Origin: a virus | IMG/VR virus record: IMGVR_UViG_3300030430_003538 | Coordinates: 1-34,722 of that record | Length of the DNA stretch: 34,722 bases | Strand: one strand, 5' to 3' | Shown here: positions 1,032 to 33,322 of the stretch, one piece after another | Numbering within the stretch: position 1 is the stretch's first letter | Layout of the letters: each line of letters begins with the position of its first letter | The notes under the pieces: generated by a model | Database searches by the model: none | What the model saw: only the letters and a program-made list of their open reading frames with translations | What the model was told of the DNA's origin: nothing | Made by a program: the position numbers and the translations under genes

Positions 1032-1397
1032 TTAGTCTTTTGGTTTCCTTTTAATAGATTCAGCTAAACCTCCTCCAAAGTAAAAGCCAATAATTAATAA
1101 CATTATTTCACCTATGTAAAAGTCATCAAGGACTGTTTTAATAGTGAACGTGTTTCCATAACCAAATAAAGTCATGCCTAACACCAGAAAAAAAGATAGA
1201 AGAAATGTACCGCCAAACATCAACGCTAAATATCTTTGCGCAATTTTGAACGGTGCATAACTTTTTAATAGCTCCACCTTTTGAGCCGTCTTTGCTTCAA
1301 TTGCTTCTGTTTCAGAAGTGTGCATGGAATCAATTAAATCCATACCTTTAGAAATAATTTTATCTGACCCTAATATTTTACCAATAATACCTATCAT
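1032..1397 (-). CDS. Holin, GTA-type three-helix (Holin_3TMs-like)
   Basis: 121 residues. An N-terminal amphipathic region (IGKILGSDKIISKGMDLID) is followed by a charged Glu/Lys/Ala stretch (residues ~28-45) and the sequence FKIAQRYLALMFGGTF. Two strongly hydrophobic helices lie at about residues 56-78 and 95-112, and a basic tail ends KRKPKD. This order fits the holin family first described with alphaproteobacterial gene transfer agents. In such systems the holin makes inner-membrane lesions that let the lysozyme reach the wall. It lies downstream of the lysozyme gene in the same leftward operon, which supports the call. Confidence 0.7.
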   Translation of the reverse strand: MIGIIGKILGSDKIISKGMDLIDSMHTSETEAIEAKTAQKVELLKSYAPFKIAQRYLALMFGGTFLLSFFLVLGMTLFGYGNTFTIKTVLDDFYIGEIMLLIIGFYFGGGLAESIKRKPKD

Positions 1398-1400
1398 GTG

Positions 1401-1619
1401 TTATTCCTCTGGGTGACAATGAGCCATTAATTTATAATATTCATTATTATAAAATGCTTGCCACATATTCTCGTTAATTAAATATTCACATTGCTCTAAC
1501 GTCATCGGTTGTTGCAAAACAATTTGATTGCCAATGTAGTGCCATTCAGCCCCAGTGTGACCCCACATAGAAATTACTAGAACATAAGCAATTTCAACAA
1601 TGTGGTGTATATCAGTCAC
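1401..1619 (-). CDS. Small exported-looking protein in the lysis cassette
   Basis: 72 residues. A hydrophobic stretch at residues ~8-18 (VEIAYVLVISMWG) could be a signal or anchor. The rest is polar with aromatic residues (WHYIGN, NMWQAFYNNEYY) and two cysteines near residues 44 and 68 that could form a disulfide if exported. Its start overlaps the stop of the EF-hand gene by four bases, and it sits three bases before the holin gene, so all three are probably translated together. A spanin or other lysis accessory role is possible from position only. No lipobox is seen. Confidence 0.6.
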   Translation of the reverse strand: MTDIHHIVEIAYVLVISMWGHTGAEWHYIGNQIVLQQPMTLEQCEYLINENMWQAFYNNEYYKLMAHCHPEE

Positions 1620-1945
1620 TGTTTACTCATGAACGCTGATACACCCATATACGCTCCCACAATAGAGCTACCAGCGATGTATAAAAGATTACTCAAATCC
1701 GTTAGTAATTTTATTCGAGAGTCTGGAATGAATGGTGCAAACATTAGCAAAGTGTAAACTGCCATAAAAATAAGTACCGCTGTTGCCATCCTTCTTTGTG
1801 CTGTTAACTTTCTAAGTTTGGCATTTTCTTTTTTGTCTGCCATCTCGATTTCATGCAGACGCATTTCATCATCGTCAACAACTCCATCACCATCGGCATC
1901 TAAATAGCTATACTTTGAATCTTTCTCAAGTTTCTTTTGAATCAT
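1616..1945 (-). CDS. EF-hand protein with two transmembrane helices, holin-like
   Basis: 109 residues with a good ribosome-binding site (GAGGAAGG). Residues 16-27 form a complete EF-hand loop, DADGDGVVDDDE, with acidic residues at loop positions 1, 3, 5, 9 and 12 and Gly at 6. A Lys/Arg-rich segment follows, then two hydrophobic helices at about 54-73 and 86-105. The loop is of the type that binds calcium; binding here is inferred. The two helices, size and place between lysozyme and holin suggest a role in membrane permeabilisation. The N-terminus overlaps the end of the lysozyme gene by 20 bases. Confidence 0.65.
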   Translation of the reverse strand: MIQKKLEKDSKYSYLDADGDGVVDDDEMRLHEIEMADKKENAKLRKLTAQRRMATAVLIFMAVYTLLMFAPFIPDSRIKLLTDLSNLLYIAGSSIVGAYMGVSAFMSKQ

Positions 1946-2384
1946 ACGCCTTCCTCATTCTGTCTGCTAAACGATTAGCACGATTTGGGGTTTGCTTACT
2001 CCAAAGCGAGTTCAACATCTCAGAAGCAGCCAACTCGTAATTTCTGTCATCGATTGCTTTTTTCATTTTTTTAAATTTTGACAATCTTGGTCTGCCCAGT
2101 TGGAAACACATATTTGCTATGCAATGTTGAACTTCTTCTGGCAGATCGTAAAGTTGAGGATATAGCATTTCACAATCTTTAATAACAATACTTATATCTG
2201 TTTCAAAGACTTCTTGGACTCTTGTATCAGATACCTCTGTACCAACTGGTTGACCAAACTCTGGATCATTTTTTGTTATTAAATGTCCGATACCAAACGT
2301 TGGATGATTTGCACTACACAGATACACTGATTTCACGCTTCCTTCTTCAAGGATAATTTCTGATTTTAATTTCTCAAGATTCAT
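1926..2384 (-). CDS. Endolysin, T4-type lysozyme (GH24) with Glu-Cys-Thr active site
   Basis: 152 residues, close to T4 lysozyme (164). The pattern aligns well: EEG at residues 13-15, TFGIGHLITK at 29-38, MCFQLG, and WSKQTPNRANR near the C-terminus, matching T4 positions around Glu11, Thr26-Gly-Ile-Gly-His and WYNQTPNRAKR. The enzyme should cleave the MurNAc-GlcNAc bond of peptidoglycan. Glu14 and Thr29 match catalytic Glu11 and Thr26, but the position of Asp20 holds Cys23. No signal peptide is seen, so a holin is needed for export. The start ATG overlaps the HTH gene by 11 bases. Confidence 0.9.
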   Translation of the reverse strand: MNLEKLKSEIILEEGSVKSVYLCSANHPTFGIGHLITKNDPEFGQPVGTEVSDTRVQEVFETDISIVIKDCEMLYPQLYDLPEEVQHCIANMCFQLGRPRLSKFKKMKKAIDDRNYELAASEMLNSLWSKQTPNRANRLADRMRKAYDSKET

Positions 2385-2587: not shown

Positions 2588-3139
2588 TTAATTACTGGGT
2601 TTTTTCCTCGATATATGCGGATTTCGAGACCTCTCTAATAAACCTATAGCCAAGTCAACCATCTGTTCACTTGTCATCGTTTTTTTTGTGCTTTTATTGT
2701 TAATTGTAACTAGTATGCCATCATCGTAAAGTCCAAACAAAACAAGGTTTTTTTCTTTTGAATTATTGCCCAATGTTGTTTTACCCACAAATTTTTTTTT
2801 ATTAAAGATTATATCGTAGGCTTTTGTCAATACAGTTAAATCATCATCCATTTCTCTATCTGTGGTTTTTCTAATCATGTAACTTACAGAAGTAATGTCT
2901 AAATTCATAAAACTCGAAATTTGACTTTGGCTCATCAACGACATGTCACGACATAAAAATGCTGTCATTCGCCTAGCAAAAGCTATTTCTTTTACACGAC
3001 TAGACGCAAGAATTTCTTCTGTTCTAATGCCTGTAATCTCTTGCACAGTCTCTATAATTTTTTGGAAAGTTTCTTTCGTGGGGGGCAGAAGTTTAGGTGT
3101 TGTGCATCTACCCCCATGAATCTTAGAACGGTATTTCAT
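2588..3139 (-). CDS. DnaA domain IV-like DNA-binding protein
   Basis: 183 residues from the ATG at 3139, which overlaps the SSB stop by 17 bases; a longer TTG frame from 3172 is less likely. Residues ~18-85 match the C-terminal DNA-binding domain of DnaA: EITGIRTEEILASSRVKEI, then ARRMTAFLCRDM, then SQSQISSFMNLDITSVSYMI, the helix-turn-helix and signature-like region. The AAA+ ATPase domain is absent. The remaining ~100 residues are unrecognised. It may bind DnaA-box-like sites at the phage origin, or compete with host DnaA. Position among recombination and SSB genes supports a replication role. Confidence 0.7.
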   Translation of the reverse strand: MKYRSKIHGGRCTTPKLLPPTKETFQKIIETVQEITGIRTEEILASSRVKEIAFARRMTAFLCRDMSLMSQSQISSFMNLDITSVSYMIRKTTDREMDDDLTVLTKAYDIIFNKKKFVGKTTLGNNSKEKNLVLFGLYDDGILVTINNKSTKKTMTSEQMVDLAIGLLERSRNPHISRKKPSN

Positions 3140-3461
3140 CGTCCAGCACGTTCTGTTTCTTTTCTGTGGCAAAACTTACATTGCCGAGTTTTAGAGCTAA
3201 ATTTTTCTTTTCAACACCGTCATTGCCTGTAAAATGCCTCTCACTCAACTCACCAATAACAGTAACAGTTGTGCCTTTTTTCAAATATTTATGCAGTGTT
3301 TCGGCTCTTTTACCCCACAAGTTACATTCGACCCAAATGGTATTCTTTTTATCTCCAAAACCAACGTTTGAAGCTACGTTAAAAACAAGTAAACTAGAAT
3401 CATTTACATTTTTTAACTCAGCATCTCTGCCAAGTCTTCCAACAAAAACACAACTATTCAT
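3123..3461 (-). CDS. ssb: Single-stranded DNA-binding protein
   Basis: 112 residues. The ATG at 3461 fits best, with AGGAAGGAAA upstream; a TTG two codons earlier is also open. The N-terminus MNSCVFVGRLGRDAEL is typical of SSB, as are the OB-fold sequence WVECNLWGKRAE and the TVIGELSERHF strand. The C-terminus DDEIPF is the acidic tip that recruits partner proteins in bacterial SSBs. It should coat single-stranded DNA in phage replication and recombination. It lies directly downstream of the putative annealing protein. Confidence 0.93.
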   Translation of the reverse strand: MNSCVFVGRLGRDAELKNVNDSSLLVFNVASNVGFGDKKNTIWVECNLWGKRAETLHKYLKKGTTVTVIGELSERHFTGNDGVEKKNLALKLGNVSFATEKKQNVLDDEIPF

Positions 3462-5149: not shown

Positions 5150-5350
5150 ATGAATTTGGCAGAATACCTAGTATCAAAGGGTATTACTCAAGCGGATGCT
5201 GCGAGACAACTAAAAGTTAGCCCAGTAGCGATACATCAATACATTTACGCAAAGGCATTACCAAGCGGAACGATGATGTTACGAATTTATAAATGGAGTA
5301 ATAAACAAATTACAACGTATGACTGGCATAAGAGTTTTCCAGATGCCTAA
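5150..5350 (+). CDS. Cro/YdaS-like helix-turn-helix regulator
   Basis: 66 residues from the ATG at 5150, chosen because AAGGAG lies six bases upstream; an ATG at 5129 lacks a site. GITQADAARQLKVSPVAIHQYI is a clear helix-turn-helix (LAEYL... QADAARQL... SPVAIHQ), and MLRIYKWSNKQITTYDWH matches the common ending of Cro/YdaS-type proteins. It probably binds the divergent control region, where a 16-bp palindrome lies just upstream, to set the balance between the two operons. It is the first rightward gene. Confidence 0.8.
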   Translation: MNLAEYLVSKGITQADAARQLKVSPVAIHQYIYAKALPSGTMMLRIYKWSNKQITTYDWHKSFPDA

Positions 5351-5651
5351 TCGTCAAAAAGAAAAGGGTTCACGGTTTGAGAGAGACATTGTTGATAAAG
5401 CCAGAGTGCGTGATTTAACAGCCAACAGAGTGCCTTTAAGCGGCTCTGCAAGTGGATTTAAAGGCGATGTGCATATTAAGGTAGGTCGAGAAACTTGGGT
5501 TATTGAGGCTAAAAAAAGAAAATCTGGGTTTAAGTTTTTGTATAAGCATCTCGAAGGTGCAGACATTTTGGTAGTTGGTGAGGATAGAAACAGAGCATTG
5601 GCGGTTATTGACCTTGAGGATTTATTAGATTTGTTGGCAAAAAGGTTATGA
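5343..5651 (+). CDS. Holliday-junction resolvase-like PD-(D/E)XK nuclease
   Basis: 102 residues from ATG 5343, overlapping the Cro-like stop by eight bases; an ATG eight codons earlier is also open. The pattern KGSRFERD (Glu13), RVPLSGS (31-35 region), GFKGDV (Asp42) and WVIEAKKRK (Glu55, Lys57) matches small archaeal-type Hjc and related phage resolvases. It would cut branched DNA from replication or recombination before packaging. The Ser residues around 33-35 lie where Hjc has a conserved catalytic serine. Another PD-(D/E)XK endonuclease role is possible. Confidence 0.7.
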   Translation: MPNRQKEKGSRFERDIVDKARVRDLTANRVPLSGSASGFKGDVHIKVGRETWVIEAKKRKSGFKFLYKHLEGADILVVGEDRNRALAVIDLEDLLDLLAKRL

Positions 5652-6268
5652 TTAATAAATTTCCAGACAAAAAATACAATATCATTTATGCTGATCCGCC
5701 TTGGACATATCGTACTTGGAGTAAAAAGGGACAAAAGAGAACCGCATCATCTCATTACAAAACCATGAGCCTGATTGATATAAAAGAGTTACCAGTGTCT
5801 GAAATATGCCATGATAACTGTATTTTATTTCTTTGGGTAACTTTTCCTAATCTAATCGAGGGCATAGAAACAATCAAAAGTTGGGGTTTTACTTATAAAA
5901 CCTGTGGGTTCGTTTGGGTAAAAACCAACAAAAATTTTCCAGTAAACCAGTATTCGTTTTTGCCACTAGATTCTTTTGATAGTTTTTATGGGTTAGGACA
6001 TTGGACTAGAGCCAATAGTGAGATTTGTTTAATTGGCACGAAGGGAAAAATTAAGAGAAAAAGTAAAGGCGTACATCAATTGATTTATGACCCTATCAGG
6101 GAACACTCTAGAAAACCAGATTGTATTAGAGATTGTATTGTAAAGTTGGTGGGTGACTTACCAAGAATCGAATTGTTTTCAAGACAAATAAATCAGGGTT
6201 GGGATAGTTGGGGTAATGAAATTAACAAATTCAAGGAGATAAAAAATGTTGGAGAAGAGAGTAGATAA
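5648..6268 (+). CDS. MT-A70 family DNA adenine N6-methyltransferase
   Basis: 206 residues. YADPPW (residues 14-19) is the catalytic DPPW motif of adenine-N6 methyltransferases; the segment SSHYKTMSLIDIKELPV and the ending LPRIELFSRQ...GWDSWGNE are typical of MT-A70. It should methylate adenine in phage DNA with S-adenosylmethionine, as protection from host restriction or as a mark for replication or packaging. No partner restriction endonuclease is seen. It overlaps the resolvase gene by four bases and the next gene by 23. Confidence 0.88.
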   Translation: MINKFPDKKYNIIYADPPWTYRTWSKKGQKRTASSHYKTMSLIDIKELPVSEICHDNCILFLWVTFPNLIEGIETIKSWGFTYKTCGFVWVKTNKNFPVNQYSFLPLDSFDSFYGLGHWTRANSEICLIGTKGKIKRKSKGVHQLIYDPIREHSRKPDCIRDCIVKLVGDLPRIELFSRQINQGWDSWGNEINKFKEIKNVGEESR

Positions 6269-32690: not shown

Positions 32691-32858
32691 ATGGATAAAT
32701 TGACAGCGCATGAGCTTATCTGCGAGGAGCGATACAAAGGTCTGGTGGAAAAGCTAGAAGATATGAATAAGCGCATGTGGCGTCTTGAAGGTCTCACAAT
32801 GGTATCAACACTGTGCGTGGTAGGAGCGGCTGTAACTGTTGTTACGCTGATTGTTTAA
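32691..32858 (+). CDS. 55-residue membrane protein, coiled coil plus one helix
   Basis: ATG 32691 is two bases after the collar gene stop. The N-terminal half is charged and helical (YKGLVEKLEDMNKRMWRLEG); the C-terminal half is one hydrophobic helix (MVSTLCVVGAAVTVVTLIV). This XhlA-like layout is seen in some small lysis accessory and tail-locus membrane proteins. Its stop TAA overlaps the ATG of the next gene (TAATG). The function is unknown. Confidence 0.6.
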   Translation: MDKLTAHELICEERYKGLVEKLEDMNKRMWRLEGLTMVSTLCVVGAAVTVVTLIV

Positions 32859-33322
32859 TGGTTGTAGCAGAGGCACTTGCTGGTATTGCGCTTGTTAAAG
32901 GTGCAGTAGAGGGAATCAAAGGCGCAATCAATACAGCAAACGATATTTCAGATATTGCTCACCATATTGATGATCTTTTCAGAGGTGAACAAGAAATACA
33001 AAAAAAACGAAGTAAAGCACAAAAAGACCCCTTCTCAATACATTCGGTAGCCGAAGAAACAATAAACTACAAATTAGCGCAAGAACACATGCAAGAGATG
33101 AAAGCTCTAATAAACATGAGGTTTGGAGCTGGTGTCTGGGAATCTATCATAGCTGAGAGAGCTAGAAGAATCGCAGAAGCAAAAGAAGCTGAACGATTAC
33201 AACGTATCGAAAAGAAAAAAGCTCACGATAAATTCATACACGATTTAGAAATTGGGGGTGTAGTAGTAATTGTTTTATGCGGTGCAATTGCTGCTTTAGT
33301 CTTTTCTATCATACTTCTCTAA
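32858..33322 (+). CDS. 154-residue membrane protein, conserved in aquatic phages
   Basis: Start chosen at ATG 32858 (TAATG overlap); an upstream GTG at 32813 would add 15 residues in conflict with the previous gene. It has a hydrophobic N-terminal segment (EALAGIALVKGAVEGIKGAI). The charged middle includes GVWESIIAERARRIAEAKEA. The C-terminal helix at ~133-152 (VVVIVLCGAIAALVFSIILL) spans the membrane. It may act with the preceding small protein in lysis or in the envelope, by inference. It ends the rightward late block. Confidence 0.6.
   Translation: MVVAEALAGIALVKGAVEGIKGAINTANDISDIAHHIDDLFRGEQEIQKKRSKAQKDPFSIHSVAEETINYKLAQEHMQEMKALINMRFGAGVWESIIAERARRIAEAKEAERLQRIEKKKAHDKFIHDLEIGGVVVIVLCGAIAALVFSIILL

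Follow-up and report, generated by a model that had tools for sequence, protein, structure and literature searches.

A phage lysis-cassette protein joining a conserved, putatively cytosolic EF-hand to two predicted membrane helices of class II holin type

Holin timing sets when infected cells burst, and the mechanism of abrupt holin triggering is an open question. Class II holins adopt an N-in, C-in topology (PMC9636201), and in phage P1 several holin-like proteins cooperate (PMC9025707). The endolysins LysGH15 and EFm1 contain an EF-hand-like calcium site in a soluble CHAP enzyme that acts on the wall (PMC9316690). A published EF-hand holin was not found in the open-access papers searched, in keeping with the preliminary description of the present locus, which knew of no characterised holin of this type.

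The window, which is the whole 34,722-base virus record analysed, carries on its plus strand a tailed-phage structural module (SU10-type portal, major head protein). A leftward gene group between 1.0 and 4.9 kb encodes SSB, a DnaA C-terminal-domain protein, a small HTH-like ORF, a GH24 lysozyme, a 109-aa protein referred to here as EF2TM, a 72-aa ORF and a 121-aa holin-like protein. EF2TM (1616..1945, minus strand) combines a putative cytosolic EF-hand with two membrane helices in a class II holin-like arrangement. Its ATG start is preceded by a strong Shine-Dalgarno sequence, GAGGAAGG, and is overlapped by the upstream gene for the GH24 phage lysozyme (endolysin; 1926..2384, minus strand; PF00959, E = 6.1e-7), in which no signal or anchor was seen. 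The EF2TM stop overlaps the GTG start of the 72-aa ORF (GTGA), in the style of a coupled operon. This downstream ORF (1401..1619, minus strand) encodes a small protein with a hydrophobic N-terminal stretch and Cys residues; it belongs to a cluster of 18 loci (c9), occupies the equivalent place in other loci, and could be a periplasmic antiholin-like protein. The 121-aa membrane protein (HOLB type; 1032..1397, minus strand) belongs to phrog_9646, of unknown function; it did not reach the Pfam model GTA_holin_3TM and its match to the PHROG holin family is no better than E = 0.23. In related loci, proteins matching Pfam GTA_holin_3TM take its place. The preliminary description had placed EF2TM between endolysin and holin genes, which holds for the lysozyme upstream and a holin-like gene downstream, with the qualifications that the 72-aa ORF intervenes and that only position and topology mark the 1032-1397 gene as holin-like. 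Scans for Rfam families, tRNAs, promoters and terminators around the EF2TM region gave nothing useful.

Several other features of the window were recorded. The lysozyme has Cys where T4 lysozyme has Asp20 (the GIGH motif is preceded by YLC instead of YLD); this natural Asp-to-Cys change is common to several relatives, most relatives having Asp. The DnaA-type protein (2588-3172, minus strand; PF08299, 1.6e-12) is a phage protein with the C-terminal DNA-binding domain and without the ATPase part. An MT-A70 type methyltransferase (5648-6268, plus strand; PF05063, 2e-32) adjoins a PDDEXK-like nuclease ORF (5319-5651). At the other end of the window lie a 55-aa protein with a coiled coil and a C-terminal membrane helix, XhlA-like by look only (32691..32858, plus strand), and a member of the C1 family (phrog_32327; about 165 aa, C-terminal membrane helix; 32777..33322, plus strand; tblastn 93% to the copy in locus L002). 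C1 is elsewhere a usual neighbour of EF2TM, lying near it in 72 of 148 loci; in phage CRP-345 it belongs to the tail region.

Hydropathy and structure prediction place hydrophobic helices at EF2TM residues of about 52-70 and 85-105 with a short loop between them, giving the two membrane helices of a class II holin. The AlphaFold model is of moderate confidence (pLDDT 68, pTM 0.36). It contains a long helix that starts as the exit helix of the EF-hand and continues as membrane helix 1 (residues 25-69, 1739..1873, minus strand; pLDDT about 65-78) and a second predicted helix with membrane helix 2 (residues 75-108, 1622..1723, minus strand), which includes a conserved G-x-V-x-A-[YF]-x-G motif. 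At the loop flanks this moderate-confidence model has a short helix at residues 12-14 and the long helix from residue 25; searched against PDB folds, the model, only moderate as it is, gave no significant match. Among 29 EF-bearing representatives the charge is +2.1 before helix 1, -1.1 in the loop and +2.0 after helix 2, a bias that predicts an N-in, C-in topology of the class II type.

The EF-hand loop, DADGDGVVDDDE, spans residues 16-27 (1865..1900, minus strand) and aligns with calmodulin. It has the expected D at position 1, D/N/S at positions 3 and 5, G at position 6, a hydrophobic residue at position 8 and E/D at position 12. The PROSITE EF-hand pattern fits residues 16-28 and occurs in 0.07% of shuffled proteins of the same composition (200,000 trials). 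Pfam single EF-hand models score below cut-off on the window protein (E = 0.02-0.05), and a profile built from 45 family members matches PDB calmodulins at 1.2e-5 over residues 10-32; the assignment is therefore secure on the strength of the family profile and conservation and not of the Pfam single models. Homologues were gathered with short peptides and membrane-helix patterns that avoid the loop, and were loop-bearing all the same; they were confirmed through full-length similarity, and EF-less relatives were tallied apart. A PROSITE-like loop is present in 111 of 112 distinct homologues, in 53 different loop sequences, the sole exception being the protein of Sinorhizobium phage phiM12, which departs at loop position 9 only. 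Across 133 distinct members (about 20 effective clusters) the invariant columns are loop positions 1, 6 and 12 (D16, G21 and E27) together with glutamine Q50; positions 3 and 5 are only D or N, position 8 is only V, I or L, position 12 is always Glu, and these columns rank among the most conserved of the protein. Ligand codons vary synonymously (GAT 79 and GAC 55 at position 1; GAA 83 and GAG 51 at position 12), so that it is the amino acids that are kept. The canonical EF-hand joined to two membrane helices that had been described from the window alone is accordingly borne out by the PROSITE match, conservation, the calmodulin profile and hydropathy. Glu at position 12 of an EF-hand favours calcium over magnesium, and judged from its sequence EF2TM very likely binds calcium.

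The loop-avoiding peptide search recovered 68 close relatives, and a wider search of viral metagenome contigs, where the family is numerous, gave at least 581 matches. The family has no name in Pfam, PHROGs or NCBIfam, NCBIfam giving only noise on EF2TM, and it matched no known holin family. An NCBIfam SLATT match to the phiM12 protein (E = 0.17) was not credited. Host genomes add little, since a scan of genome contigs produced three matches only, all in metagenome-assembled genomes.

In the window and most relatives an endolysin accompanies EF2TM in a lysis cassette, as for class II holins, the exceptions being T4-like phages and contigs with a terminase-portal location. Flanks of 2.5 kb on each side were available at 69 loci; within about 4.3 kb, 39 of these have a GH24 or M15 endolysin and 51 an endolysin or a 3TM holin, and 18 have neither nearby. 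Window-like loci usually run from C1 through EF2TM and, in some, the 72-aa gene to a 3TM holin (three types occur) and then a GH24 or M15 endolysin, and EF2TM stays put while holin and endolysin types swap. A group of 48 contigs resembling roseophage CRP-345 has EF2TM adjoining endolysin or lysis genes in all 25 with checkable flanks. Phage CRP-810 has the order EF2TM, GTA_holin_3TM, GH108. The preliminary description had suggested looking for the same domain pair beside endolysins in other phages; it does recur in many of them, next to endolysins of three families (GH24, M15 and GH108), with the calcium ligands preserved. We regard a role of EF2TM in lysis as quite probable.

The pore itself may be made by another protein, because a 3TM holin-like gene adjoins in most window-like cassettes, which counts against EF2TM as the pore. 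EF2TM lies directly upstream of holin-like genes of types A, B and C and keeps its place as the type changes, an arrangement that would suit an antiholin or co-holin regulating the adjoining 3TM holin, with calcium relieving or imposing the brake; cooperation of holin-like proteins within one phage has its precedent in phage P1 (PMC9025707). Against this stand the cassettes of CRP-1, CRP-9, CRP-345, the freshwater Limnohabitans phage DC31 and the contigs L235-L246, which keep EF2TM by an endolysin and a spanin and show no 3TM holin over the stretch surveyed. In the isolated roseophages CRP-1, CRP-9 and CRP-345 the partners of EF2TM are a spanin-like gene and an endolysin of the M15 type, and a further holin-like gene was not found nearby; DC31 has the order coiled-coil protein, C1, EF2TM, Rz-like, M15. 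EF2TM is the sole holin-like gene of the cassette in CRP-1, CRP-345 and DC31, and a small-gene scan of CRP-1 and CRP-345 found one other small two-helix protein, distant and in the early region. The relatives that lack the EF-hand, described below, likewise argue against regulation of a 3TM holin, none having been found at any of their 43 loci. We consider the regulatory reading rather unlikely. As a separate observation, the full-flank CRP-345-like cassettes (L235-L282) include 17 with a 3TM holin and 8 with a spanin and no 3TM holin, and the two look mutually exclusive there.

The EF-less relatives consist of the membrane part alone (RWKNRRRMAW...); Limnohabitans phage DC33 has one, as do many phages known from metagenomes. 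They fill the holin slot in cassettes of the order XhlA-like (often), two-helix protein, Rz-like spanin, GH108 or M15; 37 of the 43 loci are near an endolysin and 33 have a spanin. Profile comparison with EF2TM, excluding one sequence common to both sets, gave a probability of 98%; an alignment of the transmembrane part alone was too diverse for searching. In EF-less cassettes L197 and L207-L214, a 70-aa two-helix protein (c25, INPAFNMIVGAFVGTIAGIKIGK) lies between the Rz-like and GH108 genes. In a tree of the membrane part, EF-bearing rows fall on either side of the main division, with the EF-less clade branching from within them. This would suit an ancient EF-hand with two or more losses, or else repeated gain, the 63 columns resolving little. 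Homologues without the loop residues had been named in advance as refuting the calcium idea; in part they occur, since such a sister clade does exist, though it still sits in lysis cassettes.

As the EF-less clade demonstrates, the sensor is dispensable for the membrane part. EF2TM might be an ordinary class II holin that does no sensing, its EF-hand holding magnesium, or calcium constitutively, as a structural site that gives the N-terminus its shape or makes it dimerise. Such a site would agree with the EF-less relatives managing without the loop in the same cassette slot and with its retention in freshwater and soil phages. The isolates with an EF-hand are the marine CRP phages, HTVC008M and Melnitz, freshwater DC31, and phiM12 from Sinorhizobium; as DC31 and phiM12 keep the loop, it is not confined to seawater. 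The EF-less isolates are DC33 and cta1H496 from freshwater and DLP_6 from soil, and a marine versus freshwater split of the EF and EF-less clades, seen from isolates only, is suggestive at most and is not claimed here. A purely structural role is countered by the invariant position-12 Glu, a calcium-selective choice, and by the expectation that a lone EF-hand is empty at resting bacterial calcium; we judge it to be on the unlikely side.

Other members lie away from lysis genes. EF2TM is found between gp51 and a tape-measure-like gene in the T4-like phages HTVC008M and Melnitz and in phiM12, the HTVC008M and Melnitz proteins being loop-bearing members in a baseplate module. In contigs L093-L116 it is flanked by terminase and portal genes, and in some cases an endolysin is inserted alongside. 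Stenotrophomonas phage DLP_6 has a homologue without the loop, beside a large protein with a lysozyme domain at its end. A location off lysis genes had likewise been named as refuting; most members adjoin lysis genes, and the HTVC008M and Melnitz baseplate members and the terminase-portal members do not. These placements keep alive the alternative that EF2TM, though often near lysis genes, has no part in lysis and belongs to the late membrane or virion proteins, with a task such as DNA entry or the exclusion of other phages. The baseplate and tape-measure surroundings in HTVC008M, Melnitz and phiM12 and the terminase-portal position would accord with it; neighbouring endolysins of three families and spanins of two types, however, recur in unrelated genomes, and the T4 holin gene t does not adjoin the lysozyme gene e either. 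Moreover, no holin has been reported for Melnitz, and its authors proposed a curli pore as a pinholin substitute (PMC9004378). For pelagimyophages such as Melnitz, we infer that EF2TM is a plainer holin candidate than the curli pore, and a virion or late membrane function appears improbable. That the EF-hand motif is an acidic stretch arisen by chance, for which only the single-sequence Pfam scores under cut-off could speak, is ruled out by conservation, codon evidence and the calmodulin profile match, and its probability is negligible.

Domain architecture, preserved ligands, predicted topology and lysis-cassette context can be read from the sequence, and holin activity of EF2TM appears likely. 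The reading that we favour, and hold to be moderately likely, is a class II-type lysis protein, either pore or partner of a 3TM holin, with a cytosolic, calcium-specific EF-hand that may sharpen triggering in response to calcium. EF2TM would make the inner-membrane lesion itself or act with the adjoining 3TM holin. Its single EF-hand would lie on the cytosolic N-terminus, one of its helices continuing into membrane helix 1, and in the intact cell cytosolic calcium would be too low to occupy the site. Upon formation of the first lesions, periplasmic calcium would enter and bind to the EF-hand, which would then probably pair with that of a neighbouring molecule and drive or lock oligomerisation, giving sharper triggering and release of the cytosolic endolysin. 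That calcium is a trigger or amplifier of lysis, as first proposed for this locus, we hold only tentatively. The full form of the idea, a calcium-gated holin in which inflow through the first lesions loads the EF-hands of class II holins in the inner membrane and brings about their all-or-none assembly, a positive-feedback lysis switch of aquatic phages that are themselves very widespread, is a doubtful but specific possibility. If true, a holin equipped with its own calcium site would provide a defined chemical input to lysis triggering, and the preservation of the site across very diverse phages, many of them oceanic, suggests that calcium may help to time host bursting.

Among known systems, class II holins of the S21 type (phage 21) are like EF2TM in size, two helices, predicted topology and lysis-cassette place; no sequence similarity to them was found, and the N-terminal region of EF2TM carries a 12-residue EF-hand loop plus a long linker helix, which they lack. 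GTA_holin_3TM (PF11351) is often its immediate neighbour, with the same endolysin partners and a similar two-helix C-terminal layout, but has no EF-hand. Homology of EF2TM to 3TM holins including GTA_holin_3TM was considered and rejected, there being no Pfam match and an hhalign probability of 22-38%, which is not significant. XhlA/hemolysin (phrog_1193) matches the stretch from linker to helix 1 weakly (E = 0.023), and XhlA-like proteins neighbour the EF-less clade; XhlA itself lacks an EF-hand and spans the membrane with a single helix. The membrane part of EF2TM has sequence relatives in phrog_27150, which contains the phiM12 protein, and in phrog_22774 and phrog_14936, which match the EF-less type, all three being families of unknown function. 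LysGH15 and EFm1 share with EF2TM a DxDx-type calcium loop in a lysis protein; their site belongs to a soluble wall-acting CHAP enzyme, whereas that of EF2TM is predicted to lie in a membrane protein.
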